Shown here: one piece after another, positions 3,232-14,882 of the stretch
Layout of the letters: every line of letters begins with the position of its first letter
Position numbering within the stretch: position 1 is the first letter of the stretch
Translations under genes and position numbers: made by a program
The notes under the pieces: model-generated
The model's input: only the letters and a program-made list of their open reading frames with translations
Told to the model about the DNA's origin: nothing
The model's database searches: none
Source: Propylenella binzhouense
Lineage (GTDB): Bacteria > Pseudomonadota > Alphaproteobacteria > Rhizobiales > Afifellaceae
Length of the DNA: 55,622 bases
Assembly: GCF_009866965.1 (NCBI RefSeq)
Contig: NZ_SPKJ01000017.1
Location: 1 to 55,622 of the forward strand
Reading direction: 5' to 3'

Positions 3232-5994
3232 TCAGGCATGTTCGCCCTTCAGGGCCGGCCGGATCGCGGTCTCGGCCGGCGCGGCCGGAGGCTCCGCGCC
3301 TGCGAGCGGAAGGTCGATCTCGAACACGGCGCCGCGCGCGGCCGCCGGATGGACCGAGATGCCGCCGCCATGCGCCTCCAGGATCTGCTTGGAGATGGCA
3401 AGGCCCAGTCCGCTGCCCTCCCTGCCGCTGGAGCCGCGCACGAACTTCTCGAAGATGCGGGCGCGGTCGCGCTCGGAGACGCCGGGTCCGTCGTCCTCGA
3501 CCCGCAGCACCACCCGGTCCGCCCGCACGCTCCCCGAGACGCGGACATGGCCGCCGGCGCTGTCGTTGAACTTGATCGCGTTGTGCACGAGGTTGATCAG
3601 GACCTGCTTCAGCCGGTCGGGATCGGACAGGACGGGACCGAGCCGGTCCGGCACCTCGTCGCGGAGATCGATCCCGTGCTGGAACGCGAAGCCGGTCATC
3701 GCGGCGACCGCCTCGTGCGCCGTCGTCGCCGGGTCGATCCGCGCCTGCTTCAGGTCGTGGTCGCCGCGCTGCAGCCGGTTGAGGTCCAGGATCTCGTCGA
3801 GGAGCCGGGTGAGCCGCTGGCTCTCCTCGTAGATGATCCGGGCGAAGCGGTCGCGCTGCTGGGGCGACAGCCGGTCGCCTTCCAGGAGCACTTCCGCGAA
3901 GGAGCGGATCGAGGTCATCGGCGTCCTGAGCTCATGGCTGACATGGCTCAGGAACTCGTCCTTGATCGTGTCGATCTCCTTCAGCCGGGCATTGGCGAGC
4001 CGGAGCTGGACCGCCACGGCCTCGAGCTCGGAGGATTTCTGCTCGAGCTGCCTGCCATATTCGATCGCCTGCTGCGTCTCGTCGAGGATGGTGATCACCT
4101 CGTCCAGGCTGATCGTCTCGCCGCCGGCGACGCGCGAGACCAGCACGCGCGCGGAGGCCGCGCCGATCGAGCCGGCCAGCTGGCGCTCCACGAACGAGAT
4201 CAGGCGCGCGTCGGCGACGAGCTCCCGCAGATCGTGCTTCTCGCTCTCGGCATAGTCGCGGAACACGCGGTAGGCGCGTTCCGGGCCGACGATGCGGCGG
4301 GCGAGCGCCATCAGGTCCTCCACCGCCGTGTCTCCCGTCCAGGCGCGCGAGGTGCGCCGGGGCGACTCGCCGAAGGCGTCGACGAAGAGCGCGCTCTGGA
4401 GGCGCTCCAGCGGCTTCGGGACGGAGGCGAGCGAGACGAAGACATAGGCGCCGACATTGAGCGACAGGCTCCAGAACAGCGCGTGCTGGATGGACCCCCA
4501 GCCGTCGAGGTAGAAGAGCGCCTCCGGCCGCAGGAAGGCGATCCCGAAGGGGCCGTCGGTCAGGAGCCCGGGCATGGCGCCCCCGACCCGGACGAGGCTC
4601 GGCAGGAGCAGCGTGTACGCCCAGACGACGAAGCCCGCGAGAAGCCCCGCGACCGCCCCCTGTTCCGTCCCGCCGCGCCAGTAGATGCCGCCGACCATCG
4701 CGGGAAGGAGCTGCGCCGCGGCCGCGAAGGAGATGAGCCCGATCGCGGCGAGCGCGTCCGACTGGGCGCCGAACCGGTAGTAGAAGAAGCCGAGCGACAG
4801 GATGAGGACGATCGAGACCCGCCGGATCGCGAGCAGGAGCCCCGTCAGGTCGCGGGCCTGGTGCAGGTCGAGGCGCCGGCTCCGGAGCAGGAGCGGCATG
4901 ACCATGTGGTTGGAGATCATGATCGAGAGCGCAATGCAGGCGACGATCACCATCGACGTCGCCGACGAGAAGCCGCCGATGAAGGCGGCGAGCGCGAGGA
5001 GGTCGCTGCCGGCCTGGAGGGGCACCGTGAGGACGTAGAGATCGGGGTTGCGGTCGGGTCCGACGATCCCGAGGCCGGCGACCGCGATCGGGACCGTGAA
5101 GAAGCTGATGAGCAGCATGTAGAGGGGAAAGAGCCAGCTTGCCGTCCGCAGATGGCGCTCGTCGGTGACCTCCACCACCGCCACCTGGAACTGCCGCGGC
5201 AGGCAGACGATCGCCGCCGCGGCGAGGAAGAGCATGGTCGTCCAGCGCGACGGATCGCCGGCGGAGAAGGGCGGCGTCCCCCGGAGCGCCGGATCGAGCC
5301 AGACCGGCCCGGAATAATCGGGGCCGGCCGACTTGAGCCCGATCACGACGAACAGCCCGACGGCGACGAGCGCGGCGAGCTTCACGAGCGATTCGAAGGC
5401 GATCGCCGCGACCACGCCCGGATGGTGCTCGTCCGCGCCGATGTTCCGGGTGCCGAAGATGATGACGAAGGCGGCCATGGAGGCGGCCACCCAGAACGCC
5501 GTGTCGCCGAAAATGCCGTGCGCCTCGGCCGAGACGAGGGTCTTGCCGACGGTCAGGATGTCGAGGCTCGTCGCCACGGATTTGAGCTGGAGGGCGATGT
5601 AGGGCGTCGTCCCGACAAGCGCGATCAGCGTCACGATCGCGGCGACGCGCGTGCTCTTCCCGTACCGCGAGGAGATGAAGTCCGCGATCGAGGTGATGCG
5701 GTGCGTCTTCGAGATGCGCACGAGCTTGCGGAGCAGGAAGAAGGCGCCGGCGAAGACGAGGGTCGGCCCGAGATAGATCGTGGCGAACTCGGCGCCGTTG
5801 CGCGCGGCCGAGCCGACGGCGCCGTAGAAGGTCCATGACGTGCAGTAGACCGTCAGCGACAGCGTGTAGACGACCGGGGACCTGATGAGCTTGGCGCGGC
5901 CGTTCGCGGCCATCCGGTCGGTCGCGAAGGCGAGCACGAAGAGGAGCGCGAGATAGAGCCCCGAGATGGCGAGGACGACGCCCGGGGTGAGCAT
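3232..5994 (-). CDS. Sensor histidine kinase with N-terminal sodium/solute symporter domain
   Basis: Membrane sensor kinase of 920 residues. The first roughly 550 residues are a multi-pass SSS/SLC5-type symporter module; then come a soluble linker with a coiled-coil-like segment (about 620-670), a HisKA domain with phospho-acceptor His687 in SHELRTPMTS, and a HATPase domain (N-box NLVHNAIKFN, G-boxes VEDDGPGV and GSGLGLAI). CbrA-like kinases of this build are thought to link solute transport or sensing to carbon metabolism. The ATG at 5994 was chosen over 6039 because it starts the family sequence MLTPGVV and sits 7 bases after the preceding gene. It is the last gene of an operon with a receiver protein and a small membrane protein. 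The sensed solute is unknown. Confidence 0.92.
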   Translation of the reverse strand: MLTPGVVLAISGLYLALLFVLAFATDRMAANGRAKLIRSPVVYTLSLTVYCTSWTFYGAVGSAARNGAEFATIYLGPTLVFAGAFFLLRKLVRISKTHRITSIADFISSRYGKSTRVAAIVTLIALVGTTPYIALQLKSVATSLDILTVGKTLVSAEAHGIFGDTAFWVAASMAAFVIIFGTRNIGADEHHPGVVAAIAFESLVKLAALVAVGLFVVIGLKSAGPDYSGPVWLDPALRGTPPFSAGDPSRWTTMLFLAAAAIVCLPRQFQVAVVEVTDERHLRTASWLFPLYMLLISFFTVPIAVAGLGIVGPDRNPDLYVLTVPLQAGSDLLALAAFIGGFSSATSMVIVACIALSIMISNHMVMPLLLRSRRLDLHQARDLTGLLLAIRRVSIVLILSLGFFYYRFGAQSDALAAIGLISFAAAAQLLPAMVGGIYWRGGTEQGAVAGLLAGFVVWAYTLLLPSLVRVGGAMPGLLTDGPFGIAFLRPEALFYLDGWGSIQHALFWSLSLNVGAYVFVSLASVPKPLERLQSALFVDAFGESPRRTSRAWTGDTAVEDLMALARRIVGPERAYRVFRDYAESEKHDLRELVADARLISFVERQLAGSIGAASARVLVSRVAGGETISLDEVITILDETQQAIEYGRQLEQKSSELEAVAVQLRLANARLKEIDTIKDEFLSHVSHELRTPMTSIRSFAEVLLEGDRLSPQQRDRFARIIYEESQRLTRLLDEILDLNRLQRGDHDLKQARIDPATTAHEAVAAMTGFAFQHGIDLRDEVPDRLGPVLSDPDRLKQVLINLVHNAIKFNDSAGGHVRVSGSVRADRVVLRVEDDGPGVSERDRARIFEKFVRGSSGREGSGLGLAISKQILEAHGGGISVHPAAARGAVFEIDLPLAGAEPPAAPAETAIRPALKGEHA

Positions 5995-6001
5995 GGCGCG
6001 C

Positions 6002-6256
6002 TCAGCCGTTCGCGCCGTCGCGTCCGGAGAGGGGCGCATCCGCGCCCTGCCGCTCGTCGCTCCAGGGCAGCCGGCGCGCGAGCAGGAAGGCTGCGGCGAT
6101 GAGCATCGCCCAGACTGCGAAGATGTAGACGATGAAGACCGGAAACCCTGCGGCCCTCGACCAGGACGCGAGTGCGAGGATCGTCGGCGGCGTGGTCAGG
6201 AAGACGCCCAGCCACGGCAGCAGGAACGCGAATTCGTGGAGGCGCCGCTCCCTCAT
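6002..6256 (-). CDS. Small two-helix membrane protein, putative symporter-kinase partner
   Basis: 84 residues with two hydrophobic segments (about residues 10-33 and 38-61) and a charged tail. Its ATG overlaps the stop of the response regulator by 4 bases (6253-6256), and it ends 7 bases before the kinase start, so the three genes are very probably co-translated. I do not recognise the family. By analogy with DUF4212-type small subunits encoded beside SSS transporters it may assemble with the symporter domain of the kinase; that is inference from position, size and topology only. Confidence 0.75.
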   Translation of the reverse strand: MRERRLHEFAFLLPWLGVFLTTPPTILALASWSRAAGFPVFIVYIFAVWAMLIAAAFLLARRLPWSDERQGADAPLSGRDGANG

Positions 6257-6651
6257 CGGGGCGGCCCCTGGGCGGGCCGGTCGGACCGGCCGACCAGTGC
6301 GAGGGTCTGCTCGACCACGTCGCGGTTGGAGAAGGGCTTCGTCACGAACGCGTCGGCGCCGAGCGCGAGCGCCATCCGCCGGTCGTTCTCCTGGCCGCGC
6401 GCCGTCAGCACGAGGATCGGCGTGGCGCGAAGGACGGGATTGCCCTTGACGTGCCGCAGGACCTCGAGCCCGCTCTCTTCCGGCAGCATGATGTCGAGGA
6501 TCACCGCCGCCGGCCGGAGGTTTCGGATCGCCTGCAGTGCGAGTGCGCCGTCCCTGGCGACCGAGACCTCGAGACCCGCACGCTCGATGAGGAACGTGAG
6601 CGACTCGACGATATACGGCTCGTCTTCTGCGATCAGCACCAGCGGACGCAC
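6253..6651 (-). CDS. Single-domain response regulator (receiver only)
   Basis: 132-residue CheY-like receiver with no output domain. Acidic pocket Asp10/Glu11, phospho-acceptor Asp53 (VILDIMLPEES), Thr83 and Lys105 (VTKPF) are all in place. The GTG at 6651 is chosen because GGGGGGAG lies 6 bases upstream; the frame is open further upstream to 6759 but without family similarity. It heads a tight operon with the small membrane protein and the symporter-kinase, its likely phosphodonor. Lacking an output domain, it must act by binding a partner; the ScfR-like regulator 162 bases upstream is a candidate. Confidence 0.9.
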   Translation of the reverse strand: MRPLVLIAEDEPYIVESLTFLIERAGLEVSVARDGALALQAIRNLRPAAVILDIMLPEESGLEVLRHVKGNPVLRATPILVLTARGQENDRRMALALGADAFVTKPFSNRDVVEQTLALVGRSDRPAQGPPR

Positions 6652-6694
6652 GCGTCTCCCCCCGGCACTCGCTGTTCCGGTGCCGTTTCCGCGA

Positions 6695-6709
6695 AGTTTA
6701 CCGGTTTTG
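6695..6709 (+). promoter_or_regulatory. Candidate operator AGTTTACCGGTTTTG
   Basis: The 15-mer lies 43 bases upstream of the response-regulator GTG. A near copy, AGTTTACTGGTTTGG, lies at 8384-8398, 40 bases before the ScfR-like regulator start. Two copies in front of two genes of one signalling locus suggest a shared binding site; no motif search was possible. Confidence 0.35.
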
Positions 6710-6813
6710 CGGCCCGAGGCCAGCATCCGAATGGCTGACGCCGCACGGCTGCGCCGCAACTGCCGCCGGGGCGGGACCGGCGCCGCGGGTCTCCGGCCGT
6801 GCGACGTTCACGC

Positions 6814-8343
6814 TCACGGACCGGCCTGGGCGGCGAGGATCGAGGGAAAGGCCCGCTGGGGACAGCCGGGCCGCGGGCAGAGATGGCAGTTTATCCCCGT
6901 TTCGAGCGGCGGACCGGCGGTCGCGTCGCCATAGACGACGCGCCGGGCCGCGGCGGCGTCGCAGGCGATCAGGATGCTGTGCGTTTCGGCCGGGGCTCCG
7001 AAGGCGGCGGCCGGCTTGGTCGTCACCCGCGCGATGAAGAGGAACTCCCGGCCGTCCGGCAGCCGCACGCGCTGCGTCAGGACCGATCCGGGGTTCCGGA
7101 GCGCGCCGTAGACGGGCCAGAGCGGGCAGGCCCCGCCGTAGCGCGGCAATTGCAGGGCCGGGAGGCTGAACCGCTTCGAGATGTTGCCGGCCGGATCGAC
7201 GCGCATGAAGGCGAAGGGCACGCCCTCGGCCTCGGGGCGGCGAAGGGTCACGAGACGGTGGCAGATCTGCTCGATGCTGCCGCCGAACAGGCCGGCCAGG
7301 CTGTCGACGTCGTAGCGCACCCGTTCCGCGGCTTCGCGGAAGGCGTCGTAGGGAAAGAGCAGCGCGCCGGCGCCGTAGCTGTAGAGCGCCCCGACGGCGC
7401 GCTCGCGCGCCTCCTGGGTGGTGAGCCGCGGATCCTCCGCCAGGCTCCGGATGGTGCCGGTGTCCTCGAGCATGATCGCGATGCGCGCGAGCTGGAAGCG
7501 GAGCGTCGAGGGCGCCATCGCGGCGGGCGCGTGGAACAGGCGCGCGTCGCGGTCGTAGAGGCCGCGCGGCGCAGCGTGGTCGAACGACGCCGGCACCACG
7601 CTGACGCCGTGGCGGTGGGCCAGCCAGGCCGCAAGACCGCCGCGCGTATGGCCGATCTTCTCCGCCGCCCCCTCCAGCTCCGGAAAATAGTTCTGCCGAT
7701 CGATGATGAAGTCGTCGACCTCCTCCGCCGGCGTGCTCGGGCGACCGCTGTCGCCGAAATCGCTGAGCCGCTCGAACAGCGCCTTGGCGATCGCGCCGAG
7801 CTTGCCGCTCTCCTCGGCGAGCAGCGCGGTGAAGCGGCGGCGGCGGCCGGGATCGAGCTCGTCATGCTCGCTCAGGATCTCCGCGAACGAACGGACGGAG
7901 GTCATCCGCGTCAGGAGCTCGTGGCTCGCCTGGAGCAGCGTGGCGTCATGCGTGAGCCGGTCGGACAGCATCTCCGAGAGCGCGCTCGCACGGTGATAGG
8001 AGCGGTGCAGGCGCACCAGAGCGCGGCCCCATTCCGGTTGCCGTCCGACGATCTCCTGCGCGCCGGCCTGGTCGATGCCGAGGTCCTGCACCAGCGGGTC
8101 GGCGGAGATCTCCGTGAGATCCTGGACCAGGCGCGACGCCTCGGCTCCGGTCAGATCGGCGAGATCGAGATCGAGCGCGGCGGCGAGGCGGTTGAGGAGC
8201 CGTCCGGCAACCTCGCGCTTGCCGTGCTCGATGAGGTTCAGATAGCTCGCGGAGATCCCGATCTCGGCCGCAAGCGCGGCCTGCGTGATGCCGCGCTTGC
8301 GCCGGCACTCGCGCAGGCGGTAGCCCACGGGCACCCGCGCCAT
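6814..8343 (-). CDS. ScfR/RamB-like XRE regulator with a HisKA-like insert
   Basis: 509 residues. An XRE helix-turn-helix (about 8-62, GITQAALAAEIGISASYLN) is followed by a helical segment at 128-196, an IrrE/M78-like fold without the HExxH zinc motif (the spot reads RFQLARIAIMLED), and a ScfR-type C-terminus with the Cys cluster CHLCPRPGC. Related proteins (RamB, ScfR) control acetate, propionate and fatty-acyl metabolism. The 128-196 segment has SHELLTRMTSVRSFAEIL with His141 and matches the HisKA domain of the kinase at 3232-5994 at 26 of 47 ungapped positions, a surprising feature in a one-component regulator. It diverges from livJ and lies upstream of the two-component operon on the same strand, so it may control either or both. 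Confidence 0.9.
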   Translation of the reverse strand: MARVPVGYRLRECRRKRGITQAALAAEIGISASYLNLIEHGKREVAGRLLNRLAAALDLDLADLTGAEASRLVQDLTEISADPLVQDLGIDQAGAQEIVGRQPEWGRALVRLHRSYHRASALSEMLSDRLTHDATLLQASHELLTRMTSVRSFAEILSEHDELDPGRRRRFTALLAEESGKLGAIAKALFERLSDFGDSGRPSTPAEEVDDFIIDRQNYFPELEGAAEKIGHTRGGLAAWLAHRHGVSVVPASFDHAAPRGLYDRDARLFHAPAAMAPSTLRFQLARIAIMLEDTGTIRSLAEDPRLTTQEARERAVGALYSYGAGALLFPYDAFREAAERVRYDVDSLAGLFGGSIEQICHRLVTLRRPEAEGVPFAFMRVDPAGNISKRFSLPALQLPRYGGACPLWPVYGALRNPGSVLTQRVRLPDGREFLFIARVTTKPAAAFGAPAETHSILIACDAAAARRVVYGDATAGPPLETGINCHLCPRPGCPQRAFPSILAAQAGP

Positions 8344-8718
8344 CTCCCCTCCCTCCGGCCTTCGAGGCTCGATTTTCCGCCCGAGTTTACTGGTTTGGTG
8401 GTTCGAATCAACCGGTTGGCCGGGCCGTCACAGGCTGCTTTTACTCCGCTGCCGGCGCGCTCGACGCCCGCGTGCGAGGGCGTCCGAGGCGGCGGCGGCG
8501 CCTGCCCGGGGAGCCGATCGAAGAGCGCGCCGATTTTCAGGCTTTACAGCTGGCCTCCACGAATGCCGGCGTCTTTACAAATGTTTGCTGCGGGAGCTGT
8601 CGCTTCTGGAACCCGCCCGGATGCCCCTTTACTCTCTGCCGGTCCGACATCCGGACCAAGAACCGGCAGAACAGCTCCGCGGCTCGCCGGACCGCATTCA
8701 CCCCCGCGGGAGGAATTC
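8344..8718. promoter_or_regulatory. 375-base divergent control region between the ScfR-like gene and livJ
   Basis: No gene is seen. The region carries five TTTAC pentamers on the plus strand (starting near 8386, 8440, 8543, 8574 and 8628), several within TTTACT or TTTACA, plus the 15-mer AGTTTACTGGTTTGG at 8384-8398 that resembles the site at 6695-6709. The run TTTACAAATGTTTGC at 8574-8588 resembles the A/T-rich plus TTTGC sites described for RamB-type regulators. The livJ ribosome site GGGAGGAA lies at 8708-8715. I could not pick a confident -35/-10 pair for livJ. Confidence 0.45.
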
Positions 8719-10095
8719 ATGAAGCTCACCGACAAACACCTCACTCGTAGAGGGCTGCTCAAGGCCGGCGCGGCGACCTCGCTCGTCCTCGCCGCACCGC
8801 TCCATTTCGTGCGTGGCGCCTGGGCGCAGGAGAAGGCCATCGGCACCTTTCCCGCCGGCACCAGCGGAAGCTCCGTCAAATACGGCTTCATCGTGCCGCA
8901 GACCGGCGCCTATGCCGACGAGGGCGCCGACGAGCTGCGCGCCTACCAGCTGGCGGTCAAGCACCTGAACGGCGGCGGCGGCATGCTGGAGACCATGAAG
9001 CCGCTCTCGCTCAAGGGCAACGGCGTGCTCGGGAAGAAGGTCGAATACGTCACCGGCGACACGCAGACCAATCCTGATGCGGCCCGCCAGGCGGCGCAGC
9101 GCGCGATCGAGCGCGACAAGGTCATCATGTTCTCGGGCGGCTCGTCCTCGGCGGTCGCGGTCGCGCAGCAATATCTCGCCCAGGACAAGGGCGTGATCTT
9201 CATGGACGCGCTCACGCATTCCAACGACACGACCGGGAAGGACCGCCGCCGCTACGGCTTCCGCCACTTCTTCAACGCCTATCAGTCCGGCATCGCGCTC
9301 GGGCCGATCCTTGCGGAACGCTATGGCAAGGACCGCCGCGCCTTCCACCTCACCGCCGACTACACCTGGGGCCACACGCAGTACGAATCGATCAGGGACG
9401 CGACCGAGAAGCAGGGCTGGACGACCGTCAACAACATCATGACGCCGCTCGGCGCTCCGGACTTCTCGCAGTACCTGACCGCCGCCATCAATTCCGACGC
9501 CGACGTGCTCATCCTCAACCACTACGGCAAGGACATGGTGAACTCGCTCACCCAGGCGGTGCAGTTCGGCATGCGCGACATGCAGAAGAACGGCAGGAAC
9601 ATCGAGGTCGTCGTCCCGCTCTATTCCGAGTTGATGGCCAAGGGCGCGGGCGACAACATCGCCGGCGTGCTCGGCACGGCGAACTTCAACGAGAAGCTCG
9701 ACGACCCGGGCAGCGCGGCCTTCATCAAGGCGTTCACGGACGAGTACGGATTCCCGCCCTCCCAGGCGGCGCAGACCGCCTATGTCCAGACCCTGCTCTA
9801 TTCGAACGCGGTCGAGCAGGCCGGCACCTTCTATCCGCCCGAGGTCATCAAGGCGCTCGAGGGAGCCGAGATCGAGGGAATCGGACCGGGCAAGGCGCTC
9901 TACCGTGCCGAGGACCATCAGTGCTTCCACGACATCCTGGTGGTGGAAGGCAAGGCGCCGTCCGACCGCCAGAACCAGTACGATCTGCTCAAGATCGTGA
10001 AGCAGGTTCCGCGCGAGGAGGTGACCTATCCGGCCGACATTCCGGCGTTCGGCGGAAAGGACGCGCAGCTCGGAGCCTACGAGCCCTCGGCCTGA
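8719..10095 (+). CDS. livJ: ABC transporter periplasmic substrate-binding protein (LivJ/amide type)
   Basis: 458-residue periplasmic binding protein, type I fold. The N-terminus has a twin-arginine-like signal (TRRGLLKAGAATSLVLAAP, residues 9-27) ending near GAWAQ, so folded export by Tat is likely. The start has a strong ribosome site (GGGAGGAA, 4 bases away); the open frame upstream of 8719 shows no signal or family match. It heads livHMGF, followed by a hairpin. Ligands in this family include branched-chain amino acids, amides, urea and aromatic acids; in this catabolic setting an aromatic or aliphatic acid is at least as likely as leucine. The adjacent divergent ScfR-like regulator may sense its uptake. 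Confidence 0.9.
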   Translation: MKLTDKHLTRRGLLKAGAATSLVLAAPLHFVRGAWAQEKAIGTFPAGTSGSSVKYGFIVPQTGAYADEGADELRAYQLAVKHLNGGGGMLETMKPLSLKGNGVLGKKVEYVTGDTQTNPDAARQAAQRAIERDKVIMFSGGSSSAVAVAQQYLAQDKGVIFMDALTHSNDTTGKDRRRYGFRHFFNAYQSGIALGPILAERYGKDRRAFHLTADYTWGHTQYESIRDATEKQGWTTVNNIMTPLGAPDFSQYLTAAINSDADVLILNHYGKDMVNSLTQAVQFGMRDMQKNGRNIEVVVPLYSELMAKGAGDNIAGVLGTANFNEKLDDPGSAAFIKAFTDEYGFPPSQAAQTAYVQTLLYSNAVEQAGTFYPPEVIKALEGAEIEGIGPGKALYRAEDHQCFHDILVVEGKAPSDRQNQYDLLKIVKQVPREEVTYPADIPAFGGKDAQLGAYEPSA

Positions 10096-10105
10096 CCCGG
10101 AGGAC

Positions 10106-10130
10106 GAAGCGCGGCCCGCGGCCGCGCTTC
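10106..10130 (+). terminator. Intercistronic hairpin between livJ and livH
   Basis: A perfect 11-base stem GAAGCGCGGCC / GGCCGCGCTTC with a CGC loop, 11 bases after the livJ stop and with no T-run after it. Such stems typically protect the upstream mRNA or partly stop transcription, giving more binding protein than permease. Comparable stems lie at 40575-40597 and 49487-49508. Confidence 0.6.
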
Positions 10131-10196
10131 CCCTACCTGTCGCAGCGAGCCGGGGGACCCGGCATTCCGTCTCGGCGCTGATCGTCCGGAACTTCG

Positions 10197-11171
10197 ATGA
10201 CCATCAACAGCATCTTCCTGATGGTGCTCACGGGCCTGCAGCTCGGCGCGATCTACGCGCTGATCGCGCTCGGCCTCACGCTCATCTTCGGCACTCTGGG
10301 GGTCGTGAACTTCGCTCACGGCGCGCTCTACCTGATCGCCGCCTATTGCGCGGTCTTCGCGGCCCAGAGCCTCGGCTTCGGCCTCGCCATCGTGCTCGTG
10401 CCGATCATCCTCTTCATCTTCGGCATCGCGATGGAGCGGGGGCTCATCCGCTTCTTCTACCAGCGTCCCCACACGGACCAGATCCTCGTCACGTTCGGCA
10501 TCGCCATCGTGGTCGAGGAGGTGCTGAAATGGATGTTCGGGGCCAACAACATTCCGTTCGCGCTGCCCTCCTGGGGCGCCGGGCAGGTGCTCTTCTACGG
10601 GCTCGGCGCGAACGTGCCGGCCGCGATCCCCGGCATCCGCGTTCCGATGCCCTTCCTGGAGGGCTTCGCCTTCTTCCCGGCCTGGCGCCTCCTGCTCATC
10701 ATCGTGACCGCCGTCACGATCTTCGCGCTCTTCGCGCTGCTGCAGTTCACCCGCTTCGGGCTCGTCCTCCGCGCCGGCATGCGCGATCCGGAAATGCTGC
10801 GCTTCCTGGGCGTGAACGTAACCATCCGGTTCTCGATCCTGTTCGGGATCGGGGCCATGATCGCCGGCATAGCCGGCGTCTTCGGCGGGCCCGTCACCCA
10901 GGTCTCGCCGACGGTCGGCATGGCTCTCCTCGTCCCCTCGTTCCTCGTCGTCGTCATCGGCGGGATGGGCTCGATGCTCGGCGCGCTGGTCGCGGCCCTC
11001 CTGCTCGGCATGGCCTCGAGCTTCACGACCGGATTCGCGGCGGCCGTCGGCGACCCCACGGCCAAGATGGCGCTCACCGCGCTCCAGCAGATCGTGGTCT
11101 ATCTCGTCGCCGTCGTCGTGCTCCTGATCCGGCCGCGCGGACTCTTCGGAAAGAAGGGCATCTTCGAATGA
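10197..11171 (+). CDS. livH: Branched-chain-type ABC transporter permease LivH
   Basis: Inner-membrane permease of 324 residues, about eight hydrophobic helices, with the family N-terminus (LQLGAIYALIALGLTLIFGTLGVVNF, residues 13-38) and a C-terminal RPRGLFGKKG tail. It pairs with LivM to form the channel. Its stop overlaps the livM start as ATGA (11168-11171), indicating translational coupling. Length and order match other livH genes. Confidence 0.93.
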   Translation: MTINSIFLMVLTGLQLGAIYALIALGLTLIFGTLGVVNFAHGALYLIAAYCAVFAAQSLGFGLAIVLVPIILFIFGIAMERGLIRFFYQRPHTDQILVTFGIAIVVEEVLKWMFGANNIPFALPSWGAGQVLFYGLGANVPAAIPGIRVPMPFLEGFAFFPAWRLLLIIVTAVTIFALFALLQFTRFGLVLRAGMRDPEMLRFLGVNVTIRFSILFGIGAMIAGIAGVFGGPVTQVSPTVGMALLVPSFLVVVIGGMGSMLGALVAALLLGMASSFTTGFAAAVGDPTAKMALTALQQIVVYLVAVVVLLIRPRGLFGKKGIFE

Positions 11172-12283
11172 GCAACATCACCGAGGCCGGCCTCGCCACG
11201 GGCTATGCCCGCGCCGCCTCCCGTCAGCCCGCACTCGTGACGGGCACCGATCTCCTCGTCATCGGCGCGTTCGTGCTGGTCGTCCTCACCATGCCGTGGT
11301 GGCTCGTCCTGATCGCCGGCTACGAGGCGCTCGCAACCAAGATCGTGATCTGGGCCATCTTCGCGCTCGGCTTCGACATCCTGCTCGGCTTCACCGGCTA
11401 TCTCTCCTTCGGGCATGCCGCGTTCTTCGGGTCCGCGGCCTACATCACCGGACTGTCGCTGAAGCACCTGACGTCGGACATCGTGCCGGCGATGGCGATA
11501 TCCTTCGCGGGCCTTTTCGTCATCGCGCTCGTGATCGGCGTCCTCACGCTGCGACGCTCGGGGATCTACTTCTCGATTCTCACGCTCGCCTTCGCGGAGA
11601 TGGCGCACGCGCTCATCCTCTCCTCCACGCTCCAGGCCTGGACCGGCGGCGATAACGGCCTCACCGGCCTGCCGACGCCGACCCTGCTCGGCTCGCCGAT
11701 GCGGGGTCTCACCGTCTTCTATTTCGCCTCGGCCTTTCTCGTAGCGGGCTTCATCGCCGCCCTCGTCATCCGCCGCTCGCCGTTCGGGCTCATGCTCCGG
11801 GCGATCAAGGAGAACCCGATGCGGCTGGAATATACCGGCGTGAACGTCTTCGCCTACAAGATGTCCGCCTTCGTGATCTCGGCCATGTATGCCGGGATCG
11901 CGGGCTCGCTCACGGTGATCTACGAGCCCTATGTCGCGACCGAATACATCTACTGGTCGACTTCCGGCGAGGTGGTCATCATGTCGGTGATCGGGGGCGT
12001 CGGCACGCTCATCGGGCCGATACTCGGGGCGGGGTTCATGCTCTACTTCGAGAACGTGATCCAGGGCTTCATCGGCGAGCAGTGGAAGCTCGTGCTCGGC
12101 CTGATCTTCGTCTTCATGGTGATCTTCCTGCCGGGCGGCTTCGTCGATCTCGCGCGCCAGATCTGGCGCTCGCTCGGGCACAGGATCCGCGCGCGGCGCT
12201 ACAACGTGCCCGACATGGCCCCGGAGGCCGACGAGGACCGGCTCCGCCGCCGCCTCGACCGAGAGGAGGCCGAGGCCCGATGA
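11168..12283 (+). CDS. livM: Branched-chain-type ABC transporter permease LivM
   Basis: 371-residue inner-membrane permease. The family signature ALGFDILLGFTGYLSFGHAA is at about residues 59-78, with further helices to about residue 330 and a charged cytoplasmic tail. The start at 11168 overlaps the livH stop; an open frame extending upstream runs inside livH and is not the gene. The stop overlaps the livG ATG (12280-12283). The N-terminal extension of about 25 residues before the first helix is polar and probably cytoplasmic. Confidence 0.93.
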   Translation: MSNITEAGLATGYARAASRQPALVTGTDLLVIGAFVLVVLTMPWWLVLIAGYEALATKIVIWAIFALGFDILLGFTGYLSFGHAAFFGSAAYITGLSLKHLTSDIVPAMAISFAGLFVIALVIGVLTLRRSGIYFSILTLAFAEMAHALILSSTLQAWTGGDNGLTGLPTPTLLGSPMRGLTVFYFASAFLVAGFIAALVIRRSPFGLMLRAIKENPMRLEYTGVNVFAYKMSAFVISAMYAGIAGSLTVIYEPYVATEYIYWSTSGEVVIMSVIGGVGTLIGPILGAGFMLYFENVIQGFIGEQWKLVLGLIFVFMVIFLPGGFVDLARQIWRSLGHRIRARRYNVPDMAPEADEDRLRRRLDREEAEAR

Positions 12284-13050
12284 CCGCCATGAAGACACCC
12301 ATCCTGGAAGTGCGCGGCGTCTCCAAGAGCTTCGGCGGGCTGCGCGCCCTCAACGACGTGAACCTCACCGTGCAGGAGGGCTCGATCCACGCGATCATCG
12401 GGCCGAACGGCGCCGGCAAGTCGACGCTCCTCAACGTGCTGATCGGGCTGATCGAGGCCGACGAGGGCACCATCACCTATGCCGGCGAGCGGATTCGCGG
12501 CCTGTCGCCGCACACCATCATCCAGAAGGGCATCGCCCGCGTGTTCCAGACCCCGCAGATCTTTCCGGGTCTGACGCTCGTCGAGAACGTCGCGATCGCG
12601 GCGCTCGCGAAGCGTGACGGCCAGTTCGGGCTGAGAATCCTCGAATCGCTGAGGCCCGGCCATCCGGTGATGGCGGAAGCCGAGGAGCATCTGGTGGATG
12701 TCGGCCTCGCCGGCCATCTGCGGTCGGAGGCGCAGCATCTCTCCCGCGGCGACAAGCGCCGGCTGGAACTCGCGCTCTGCCTCGCGGCGAGGCCCCGGCT
12801 CCTGCTCCTCGACGAGCCGACCGCCGGCATGTCGCGGCACGACACCAACAGCACGATCGAGCTTCTGAAGCACCTGTCGCGCAAGGGCATGACGAAGATC
12901 GTCATCGAGCACGACATGCACGTCGTGTTCTCGCTTTCCGAACGGATCACGGTGCTCGCCCAGGGAACCGTGATCGCCGAGGGCGCGCCGCAGGAGGTCC
13001 GCGGCAATCCGCGCGTGCAGGAAGCCTATCTCGGGGGAGCGCATACATGA
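12280..13050 (+). CDS. livG: Branched-chain-type ABC transporter ATPase LivG
   Basis: 256-residue ATP-binding subunit: Walker A GPNGAGKS at 41-48, Q-loop near 90, signature LSRGDKRRLELAL (about 154-166, with the GDKR variant common in LivG), Walker B LLLLDEP at 174-180 and H-loop IEHDM. It forms a heterodimer with LivF to power import. A ribosome site GAGAGGAGG (12261-12269) precedes the ATG, which overlaps the livM stop. The stop overlaps the livF start. Confidence 0.93.
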   Translation: MTAMKTPILEVRGVSKSFGGLRALNDVNLTVQEGSIHAIIGPNGAGKSTLLNVLIGLIEADEGTITYAGERIRGLSPHTIIQKGIARVFQTPQIFPGLTLVENVAIAALAKRDGQFGLRILESLRPGHPVMAEAEEHLVDVGLAGHLRSEAQHLSRGDKRRLELALCLAARPRLLLLDEPTAGMSRHDTNSTIELLKHLSRKGMTKIVIEHDMHVVFSLSERITVLAQGTVIAEGAPQEVRGNPRVQEAYLGGAHT

Positions 13051-13802
13051 CGATTGCCGCTGAGGCCCGTCCGGCCGATGCCGTCGCATCGGCGCCCGCC
13101 CCCTTCTTCGCGGCCCGCGACGTTCACGCCTATTACGGCGAAAGCTACATCGTCCAGGGCGTGGACTTCGAGGTCCGCGAGAAGGAGATCGTCGCGCTGC
13201 TCGGGCGAAACGGCGCCGGCAAGACCTCGACCCTGCGGACGATCGCGCGCGCCGCCCAGCCGTCGCTGAAATCCGGCGAGATCTGGCTCGGCGGCATGCC
13301 GCTCCACCGGATGAGCACGCACGAGGCGGCGCGCGCGGGCGTGCAGCTGGTGCCGGAGGACAGGCGCATCATTCCCGGCCTGACGGTGGAGCAGAACCTC
13401 ATCGTGGCGCAGGTGGCGGAGCGGCCCGGCTGGCCGCTCGCCCAGATATACGAGCATTTCCCGCGGCTCGCCGAGCGGCGGCGGCAGGACGCGATCACGA
13501 TGTCGGGCGGCGAGCAGCAGATGCTCGCGGTCGCCCGCGCGCTCGCCCGGGACCTGAAGCTCCTCCTCCTGGACGAGCCCTATGAGGGGCTCGCCCCGAC
13601 CATCGTGCGCGAGATCGAATCGATCCTGCAGGAGGTGAAGCGGATCGGCATCACCACCATCATCGTGGAGCAGAACGCGATCGCCGCCCTCCAGCTCGCC
13701 GATCGCGCCGTCATCCTCGACATGGGGACCGTCGCCTACCAGGGACCGGCGCAGGAGGTCCTGGACAACGCCGATCTGCGCCACCAGTACCTGGCGATCT
13801 GA
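13047..13802 (+). CDS. livF: Branched-chain-type ABC transporter ATPase LivF
   Basis: 251-residue ATP-binding subunit: Walker A GRNGAGKT at 53-60, LivF-type VPEDRRIIPGLTVEQNL at about 102-118, signature MSGGEQQ at 152-158, Walker B LLLLDEP at 172-178 and H-loop VEQN. An extra polar stretch of about 18 residues precedes the fold. It is the last gene of the livJHMGF operon; two stem structures follow before the convergent crotonase gene. Confidence 0.93.
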   Translation: MTIAAEARPADAVASAPAPFFAARDVHAYYGESYIVQGVDFEVREKEIVALLGRNGAGKTSTLRTIARAAQPSLKSGEIWLGGMPLHRMSTHEAARAGVQLVPEDRRIIPGLTVEQNLIVAQVAERPGWPLAQIYEHFPRLAERRRQDAITMSGGEQQMLAVARALARDLKLLLLDEPYEGLAPTIVREIESILQEVKRIGITTIIVEQNAIAALQLADRAVILDMGTVAYQGPAQEVLDNADLRHQYLAI

Positions 13803-14021: not shown

Positions 14022-14882
14022 CTACGCTTCCGCCTTCTTCGCGCCGTGCGTGAGAAGCGTGCCGCGCTGGAACGGCTCGAAGGTGGGCTTGTAGATCTTC
14101 TCGTCCAGGAACTGCCGCAGGCCGGTATTGTAGGAATCTTCCTTGTCGTTGGCGCGGATGGCCTTCCCCTTCTCCGCGAGGTAGTCGTAGGCCTGCGCGA
14201 AATCCATGCTGCGGACATGTCTCATGGCCTGCTTCGTCGCGCGCAGCACTTCCGGGCTCTTCTTCATGAGACGGACGGCGAGGTCCTCGGTCGCCTTCTC
14301 GAGCTCGCCATCCGGGACCGCATAGTTGACGAGGCCGATGCGCGCCGCCTCGTCTCCGTCGAACGCATCGCCGAGGCACGCATAATACATCGCATGCCGC
14401 GGCAGCAGCGCATCCGCGACCACCTTGGCGACGAGCGCACCGGGCAGGATTCCCCAATTGACCTCCGAGAGCGAGAACGTCGCGCTCTTCGCGGCGATGG
14501 CGAAGTCGCAGGCCAGGAGCTGCATGAAGGCGCCGCCGACGCAATATCCGTGCACCATGGCGATGGTCGGCTTTCGGTAGTTGTAGATGCGCTCCCAGCG
14601 CCAGCGGTTCGCCGCCTCGGCGGCCTTCTTCTTTTCGGCCGGGTTGCTGTCCAGCTCGCGGAAGAACTTCTTCAGATCCTGCCCGGCGCTGAAATTGCCG
14701 CCCGCGCCCGTGATCACGATCACCGCCGCGTCGGGATCGGTCTCCAGGCGGGCGAGCGCATCGTCCATGTCGTAATGGAGGGCCGGGCTCATGGCGTTGC
14801 GCTTGTCCGGCCGGTTGAGGGTCACCCAGGCGATCCCGTCATGGATGTTCACCAGCACGTTCTCGTACTTGTAGTCCTGCAT
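14022..14882 (-). CDS. p-Hydroxycinnamoyl-CoA hydratase/lyase-like crotonase
   Basis: 286-residue crotonase-fold enzyme. In the HCHL (Ech/FerB) family the enzyme hydrates hydroxycinnamoyl-CoA and cleaves it to a hydroxybenzaldehyde and acetyl-CoA. Oxyanion-hole segments GGNFSAGQDL (61-70) and GYCVGGA (112-118) are present, with Glu140 in FSLSEVNWGILPG at the place of the HCHL catalytic Glu. The second hydratase Glu is absent (AMYYA), as in HCHL, and a YDYL motif (231-235) matches the HCHL substrate-phenol Tyr region. Ribosome site AGGAGA lies 5 bases upstream. It is the last gene of the seven-gene operon at 14022-22961. A plain enoyl-CoA hydratase is the alternative; no assay data exist. Confidence 0.78.
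   Translation of the reverse strand: MQDYKYENVLVNIHDGIAWVTLNRPDKRNAMSPALHYDMDDALARLETDPDAAVIVITGAGGNFSAGQDLKKFFRELDSNPAEKKKAAEAANRWRWERIYNYRKPTIAMVHGYCVGGAFMQLLACDFAIAAKSATFSLSEVNWGILPGALVAKVVADALLPRHAMYYACLGDAFDGDEAARIGLVNYAVPDGELEKATEDLAVRLMKKSPEVLRATKQAMRHVRSMDFAQAYDYLAEKGKAIRANDKEDSYNTGLRQFLDEKIYKPTFEPFQRGTLLTHGAKKAEA

Follow-up and report, generated by a model that had tools for sequence, protein, structure and literature searches.

A HisKA-like hairpin within an ScfR-type regulator of Propylenella binzhouense, a putative docking site for a free receiver

The window, as the whole stretch of DNA analysed here is called, comprises 55,622 nucleotides from Propylenella binzhouense (contig NZ_SPKJ01000017.1 of assembly GCF_009866965.1). 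On its minus strand, the genes for a regulator, a receiver, an 84-aa product and a membrane histidine kinase follow one another in this order, and an ABC importer operon diverges from the regulator gene (Table 1).

Table 1. Features of the locus, with positions in the window; residue numbers refer to the encoded proteins.
Feature	Position	Strand	Basis or remark
SLC5-like membrane histidine kinase, 935 aa by the longest start	3232..6039	-	HisKA, HATPase_c and 10ed matches
Kinase HisKA/DHp stem, residues 693-759, with His702	3763..3963	-	Pfam, alignment
84-aa ORF between receiver and kinase	6002..6256	-	ORF list; hydrophobic by eye
Single-domain receiver, domain at about residues 41-150	6253..6759 (ORF)	-	Pfam Response_reg; output domain not found
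XRE/ScfR-type regulator with DHp-like insert, 509 aa	6814..8343	-	ORF, Pfam, AF2 model
PrpR-like sensor (putative acyl-CoA/[4Fe4S]), residues 204-502	6838..7734	-	Structural matches, Pfam Peptidase_M78 and ScfRs
C486-x2-C489-x4-C494 motif	6862..6888	-	With C406, counterpart of the PrpR [4Fe4S] ligands
Pseudo-DHp hairpin, residues 134-195	7759..7944	-	Alignments, AF2; without counterpart in PrpR or plain ScfRs
His141, DHp histidine position	7921..7923	-	H in 67/75 regulators
DNA-binding helix-turn-helix, about residues 7-66	8146..8325	-	Pfam HTH_3 at 10-64
TTTACAAA octamer, candidate operator	8574..8581	+	Between regulator and ABC operon
Substrate-binding protein, urea/branched-chain-type ABC importer	8719..10095	+	Peripla_BP_6; divergent from regulator
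ABC permease	10197..11171	+	BPD_transp_2; nearest NCBIfam UrtB, under its cut-off
ABC permease	11168..12283	+	Nearest NCBIfam UrtC, under its cut-off
ORF with putative ABC ATPase by eye	12082..13050	+	ORF translation only
ABC ATPase	13047..13802	+	ABC_tran; nearest NCBIfam UrtE, under its cut-off

With E 7.7e-106, a profile of 12 relatives of the kinase matches PDB entry 10ed (a 'histidine kinase'), the match covering positions 10-624. HisKA and HATPase_c are found in 12/12 of these relatives, and the Pfam SSF domain in 1/12, which is not the window's protein; it is because of the 10ed match and this single SSF match that the kinase is referred to as a symporter. With an SLC5-like membrane part joined to HisKA and HATPase domains, it has the composition of the SLC5/STAC histidine kinases. 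The residues associated with receiver phosphorylation (D, E, D, T/S and K) are present in 66/66 receivers. The 84-aa ORF, which resembles ORFs at many related loci, has no NCBIfam match at 1e-5 and no Pfam match at 0.001; the label 'DUF4212', which might be given to it, is thus backed by neither collection. At one related locus (L273, genome G204) there are two receivers: one adjoins the regulator, the other the kinase, and ABC importer genes separate them. The genome of P. binzhouense also contains a 1188-aa frame (G000:C112:136557-138458) with 46% identity to kinase residues 25-667, the membrane part, and a PQQ-dependent methanol/ethanol-type dehydrogenase scoring above the TIGR03075 cut-off is encoded beyond the kinase at 24-2018 of the window.

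The regulator has Pfam matches to HTH_3, Peptidase_M78 and ScfRs, each above its cut-off, and a HisKA match below the cut-off between HTH and M78. Residues 1-71 have structural matches to XRE/cI-type HTHs, and structure comparison of the sensor half with PrpR chains 6cz6, 6cyy and 6cyj gives Z 35.0-35.1 over approximately residues 203-509. C406, C486, C489 and C494 are invariant across 34 aligned regulators and line up with the [4Fe4S] ligands of PrpR, given in PMC6765138 as Cys363 and a C-X2-C-X4-C motif. Judged by its HTH, Peptidase_M78-like and ScfRs domains together with this cysteine set, the regulator is a transcription factor of the PrpR/RamB type (ScfR), a family of known acyl-CoA regulators (PMC6765138; PMC10370305), and may itself bind acyl-CoA. 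Its score against the NCBIfam RamB equivalog NF038139 (327.4 bits) is under the cut-off of 700. At four related loci (L161, L162, L163 and L166), where receiver and kinase are both present, the regulators are shorter (434-483 aa frames) and retain the HTH and the insert described below, with a diverged sensor half; that of L161 has no Peptidase_M78 match and a weaker ScfRs match.

An earlier note on this DNA had proposed an ungapped match of regulator residues 128-196 (7756-7962, minus strand) to the HisKA helix of the neighbouring kinase, with 26 of 47 residues identical. The coordinates are correct (residue 128 at 7960-7962, residue 196 at 7756-7758, His141 at 7921-7923), and the same count is obtained for the best ungapped 47-residue stretch, regulator residues 136-182 against the kinase HisKA stem. 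Across the whole segment 27/69 residues are identical, compared with a maximum of 18/69 when the segment was shuffled 2000 times and slid along the whole kinase. BLASTP of the regulator against the neighbouring kinase yields E 2e-11 in a single comparison, and a search against its own whole genome at E <= 0.001 recovers only the regulator itself, the neighbouring kinase (E 2.6e-9) and one HTH. The HisKA profile search that the note had suggested gives matches both in the window's regulator and in its relatives. Pfam HisKA (PF00512) scores 19.1 bits against the former (E 0.0014), under the curated cut-off of 26.9, and reaches E 1.4e-4 against a 90-aa segment alone; at E <= 0.1 it is found in 52/67 segments, the window's included (best 7.6e-11), the next family being found in 5/67, and the regulator of one relative exceeds the curated cut-off with 35.4 bits. 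On these sequence comparisons, the insert is homologous to the HisKA stem and not a chance resemblance. The description of the segment as a near-copy of the neighbouring kinase holds for the window pair (26/51 over positions -6 to +44, counted from the histidine), but a recent local copy is not supported because the similarity is old and family-wide, with a mean of 37% over the same positions in 64 pairs.

Structure prediction, also suggested by the earlier note, places a helical hairpin at the segment with modest confidence. The AF2 model of all 509 residues is good for the HTH and the sensor and weak for the insert (blocks of 45-74 pLDDT); it contains helices at 134-159 and 165-195, preceded shortly by a linker helix at 103-131. 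Modelled alone, the insert again forms a hairpin (pLDDT 74.5). Chains of HK853 and other kinases occupy the top Foldseek rows for this model, all statistically weak and none below E 0.2. VIA-align superposes model positions 34-100 on 4jav 252-319 (Z 9.5, rmsd 1.6 over 67 residues), a result tied by unrelated helical bundles, and sets His141 on HK853 H260 to within one residue. The predicted hairpin is taken as compatible with a DHp fold and no more.

The insert has a characteristic distribution within the ScfR family. A search of 397 genomes of the order distinguished full-length relatives from ScfRs that match only through the HTH and from approximately residue 186 onward. In an alignment of the 34 best-listed full-length relatives with six other, plain ScfRs, a block of about 60 residues is present in the 34 and missing in the six. 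A hairpin of about 62 residues separates the DNA-binding part from the PrpR-like sensor in all 74 examined relatives; with the window's own, these make up the 75 regulators counted below, which were chosen by a full-length or a segment match and include 40/44 further insert-bearing genomes of the class (G460, G654, G735 and G760 were left out, the loci of G735 and G760 being inspected outside this count). The solved PrpR, whose alignment stops at profile position 134 and resumes at 203 with nothing across the insert, lacks the block, as do 37/80 named ScfR loci. Named carriers include Thalassospira, Devosia, Pelagibacterium, Maritalea, Ferrovibrio and Minwuia, and a few carriers belong to genera that we take to be Betaproteobacteria. 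A literature search, mostly without subscription journals and covering for several topics the best 6 to 20 of many papers, found no description of a HisKA-like domain in an ScfR. An ScfR carrying a receiver-docking pseudo-DHp would appear to be new; its homology and its gene module are well supported, and its mechanism is deduced from sequence.

The insert and the kinase are found in largely the same genomes. Among 385 genomes of the class, 44 have the insert and a full-length kinase, one (68% complete) the insert only, nine the kinase only, and 331 neither. These tallies scored at most 10 candidates per genome in one scan and at most two in the other; full-length kinases were counted at E < 1e-200, and three genomes with matches of E 1e-155 to 1e-163 spanning only the first ~672 residues fell outside the kinase count. 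The kinase adjoins the regulator in 65 of the 75 cases, one of them a fragment at a contig end, and lies no more than 10 kb away in 70; in the other five it is located elsewhere in the genome. The survey of ScfR homologues named in the earlier note points the same way, as ScfRs away from such a kinase lack the segment: of 80 named loci, 43 carry the insert, the fetched DNA of 35 of them also including the kinase, and that of the 37 insert-free loci includes none. Among the eight insert-bearing named loci without a kinase, four (L185, L187, L202 and L203) end close to the regulator, and for two (L189 and L199) the kinase is encoded at another site in the genome, split into two pieces for L199. 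For the remaining two, Rhodocyclus tenuis (L191) and a Lautropia MAG (L180), the kinase was not found in the genome, the R. tenuis search giving no such kinase at E <= 1e-60. The R. tenuis insert is decayed (25.5 bits, compared with at least 62 in the other 42 named loci) and has Gln in place of His, and its regulator still adjoins an importer-type binding protein. The Lautropia insert is intact (85.3 bits, His present).

The segment also resembles the linked kinase in particular. In 42 genomes, all picked for having a linked kinase, the best kinase match of a segment profile is the linked one in 42/42 (E 1e-14 to 1e-8); few further kinases reach E <= 0.01. In four of these genomes used as a control, generic HisKA ranks the linked kinase 4th of 28 (the window's genome), 5th of 23, 24th of 48 and 9th of 57.

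The importer forms a further part of the conserved neighbourhood. A homologue of its binding protein lies divergently upstream in 68/74 relatives (54-86% identical, median 61%) and is never otherwise placed; one of the six regulators without it is at a contig end. Homologues of the importer permeases were found at 0/43 insert-free ScfR loci. The NCBIfam urea models match the importer (8719-13802) well under their cut-offs. The octamer TTTACAAA has its sole exact copy in the window between regulator and importer (0.02 expected), and exact copies occur in 37/69 corresponding intergenic regions, the window's included; in one shuffle that preserved base composition alone, no octamer was found in more than five regions. 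The ABC importer is a likely target of the regulator. A crotonase at 14022-14882 scores 347 bits against the NCBIfam model for p-hydroxycinnamoyl-CoA hydratase/lyase, above its cut-off of 276; no homologue of it was found in the fetched loci of the 74 relatives.

The regulators retain some stem residues and have lost the equipment of a functional histidine kinase. H, E(+1), R(+3), T(+4) and P(+5) occur in all 64 kinases of the 64 regulator-kinase pairs, compared with 61, 8, 1, 30 and 0 of the paired regulators, and Pfam finds no HATPase domain in the window's regulator at E <= 1. Further along the helix, R(+10), S(+11), E(+14), I(+15) and L(+16) are present in 61, 60, 60, 64 and 61 of the 64 regulators. 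R151, E155 and L157 are invariant, and H141 nearly so, in the 34 aligned regulators, which, like the decay of the insert in R. tenuis, speaks against a vestigial insert with no signalling role; the variation of the His and of parts of the motif in some lineages would fit such a remnant, which we regard as extremely improbable.

The histidine itself bears on a second possibility, a phosphorelay in which phosphate would pass from the kinase His to the receiver Asp and finally to His141 of the regulator as the last carrier. Across the 75 regulators the position is H in 67, Q in four, F in three and L in one, and the His is present in 42/43 named insert-bearing loci, some of which are also among the 75. 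That the His is kept while E(+1), R(+3) and P(+5) are mostly lost would suit such a relay, as would the position of His141 in the superposed model. In HisKA proteins E(+1) is required for kinase and not for phosphatase activity (PMC3510030), and because it is dispensable for the latter, its loss is compatible with a regulator that takes phosphate from the receiver. Against this stands the loss of the His in at least four lineages that have kept both hairpin and kinase (Q in L064/L067, L in L081, Q in L150/L151, F in L159/L164/L165), and the relay seems rather unlikely. Five of the 10 regulators lacking an adjacent kinase have a changed His, compared with 3/65 of those next to a kinase (Fisher p 0.0007, without correction for ancestry).

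Position +4 is relevant to a third reading, that the hairpin is a phosphatase or sink for receiver phosphate, tuning the kinase signal without being switched itself. A Thr/Asn-type residue at this position is required for HisKA phosphatase activity (PMC3510030), and 36/64 regulators comply (T in 30, N in six). The other 28 have Ser or Ala, and the module offers no evident alternative output for the receiver, which makes a pure phosphatase a very improbable explanation.

The surface that a receiver would contact is partly retained. At the five receiver-contact positions of HK853 named in the title of 4jau (A268, A271, T275, V294 and D297, counted from H260), regulator and kinase are identical in 67% of cases vs 37% overall (p 0.013), and these positions vary less among the regulators (p 0.011). 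The contact positions of DivL correspond to +3, +7, +11, +12, +15, +29 and +32 according to PMC4211667. The regulators mostly share the kinases' commonest residue at +7, +11, +15 and +29, but not at +3 (Arg in 64/64 kinases vs Leu in 58/64 regulators), +12 (Phe in 62/64 kinases vs 14/64 regulators) or +32 (agreement in 8/64 pairs). Pair-specific coevolution was considered and set aside. Regulator stems are more similar to their own kinases (0.373) than to shuffled ones (0.354; 0/5000 as high), but because this signal fades once ancestry is taken into account (partial Mantel r 0.075, 174/2000 permutations as high), it is not claimed here; the top same-residue scores, at +6, +11 and +12, rest on few events.

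DHp domains dimerise, and the hairpin could accordingly be a mere dimerisation stem, or could pair with the kinase stem and tether the regulator to the membrane. Its position closely behind the linker helix in the AF2 model would be in keeping with dimerisation. Neither version explains the retention of the His and of contact positions or the co-occurrence with the kinase; plain ScfRs manage without a hairpin, and pairing with the kinase is without specific support. Overall, this reading has little likelihood.

Of the three roles proposed in the earlier note (dimerization with the kinase, docking of the receiver and acceptance of phosphate), docking fits best. The comparative evidence bears out its design of a symporter-kinase, a free receiver and a DNA-binding protein imitating the kinase stem, apart from the local near-copying. 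We therefore favour, with a rough probability of 0.56, a model in which the phosphorylated receiver docks on the regulator's pseudo-DHp and thereby switches an acyl-CoA regulator. In this model, a PrpR/RamB-type regulator has acquired, behind its DNA-binding part and ahead of its sensor, a HisKA stem stripped of kinase equipment. The SLC5-like kinase would phosphorylate the free receiver, which would then dock on the hairpin through the face that it uses on the kinase, and the docked receiver would change the spacing or the activity of the DNA-binding oligomer. In this way, the regulator would read two inputs, the symporter-kinase signal via the receiver and acyl-CoA with the [4Fe4S] cluster via its C-terminal part, and would control the divergent ABC importer. 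The conserved module and the PrpR-like sensor together make a circuit of kinase, receiver, acyl-CoA-regulator hairpin and importer likely. Several observations count against docking: the His, which would be unneeded if docking alone mattered, is kept in most regulators; at +3, +12 and +32 the contact residues have changed; pair-by-pair coevolution does not hold up beside ancestry; the Lautropia MAG has an insert with no kinase found; and the hairpin is modelled with modest confidence and weak structural matches.

The nine genomes of the class with the kinase only were expected to contain a degenerate regulator, and seven of them have a PAS/exonuclease protein in its slot instead. At these loci (L259 and L261-L266), receiver and kinase flank a protein that ends in a DEDDh exonuclease, with RNase_T matches of 115-131 bits, PAS matches in 6/7 and weak HisKA matches in 3/7. 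Its stem region resembles the stem of this kinase in at least five of the seven, and the His is absent at the stem position in the four of the seven for which an alignment is shown. A second pseudo-stem protein of this kind speaks indirectly for docking, rather than phosphotransfer, as the shared principle.

Many receivers lack an output domain and their targets are obscure; here, the sequence names a candidate target, a regulator that mimics the kinase stem. We tentatively suggest, as a possibility that is still somewhat doubtful, a new format of two-component output in which a free receiver hands its signal, possibly with phosphate, to the His-bearing pseudo-kinase stem of a transcription factor. 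If so, two-component input and an acyl-CoA/[4Fe4S] sensor would be joined on one protein, and with the second pseudo-stem protein, receiver-to-pseudo-stem docking would be a general and overlooked output route. Lineages that have lost the His or the kinase provide natural controls.

Spo0B and ChpT have a DHp-like fold and are phosphate carriers without kinase activity; they differ from the regulator in not being DNA-binding proteins. PrpR, RamB and PccR of the ScfR family share with it the HTH, the PrpR-like sensor fold and the C-X2-C-X4-C motif with one further Cys, and differ in that the solved PrpR and the examined plain ScfRs lack the DHp insert. Pden_1785 of Paracoccus denitrificans is reported to be a protein of the ScfR network whose gene clusters with two-component genes (PMC10370305); the passages concerned describe no domain or mechanism for it. 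The SLC5/STAC kinases of the CrbS/R, CbrA/B and RpuS/R systems likewise have an SLC5-like membrane part fused to HisKA-HATPase; unlike in those systems, the receiver here is without an output domain, and the proposed output is a separate regulator. A precedent for the mechanism would be DivL of Caulobacter, a pseudokinase whose stem senses the phosphorylated receiver DivK~P without its His, and in which Y550H leaves receiver binding intact, as described in PMC4211667. DivL and the regulator share a HisKA stem without kinase function, a receiver partner and several contact positions. DivL has a fuller kinase fold and Tyr in place of the His, whereas no ATPase domain was found in the regulator, whose stem mostly retains the His and lies within a DNA-binding protein. 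If receiver docking on the regulator holds, the idea embodied by DivL, a dead kinase stem as a receiver sensor, would extend to a DNA-binding protein.
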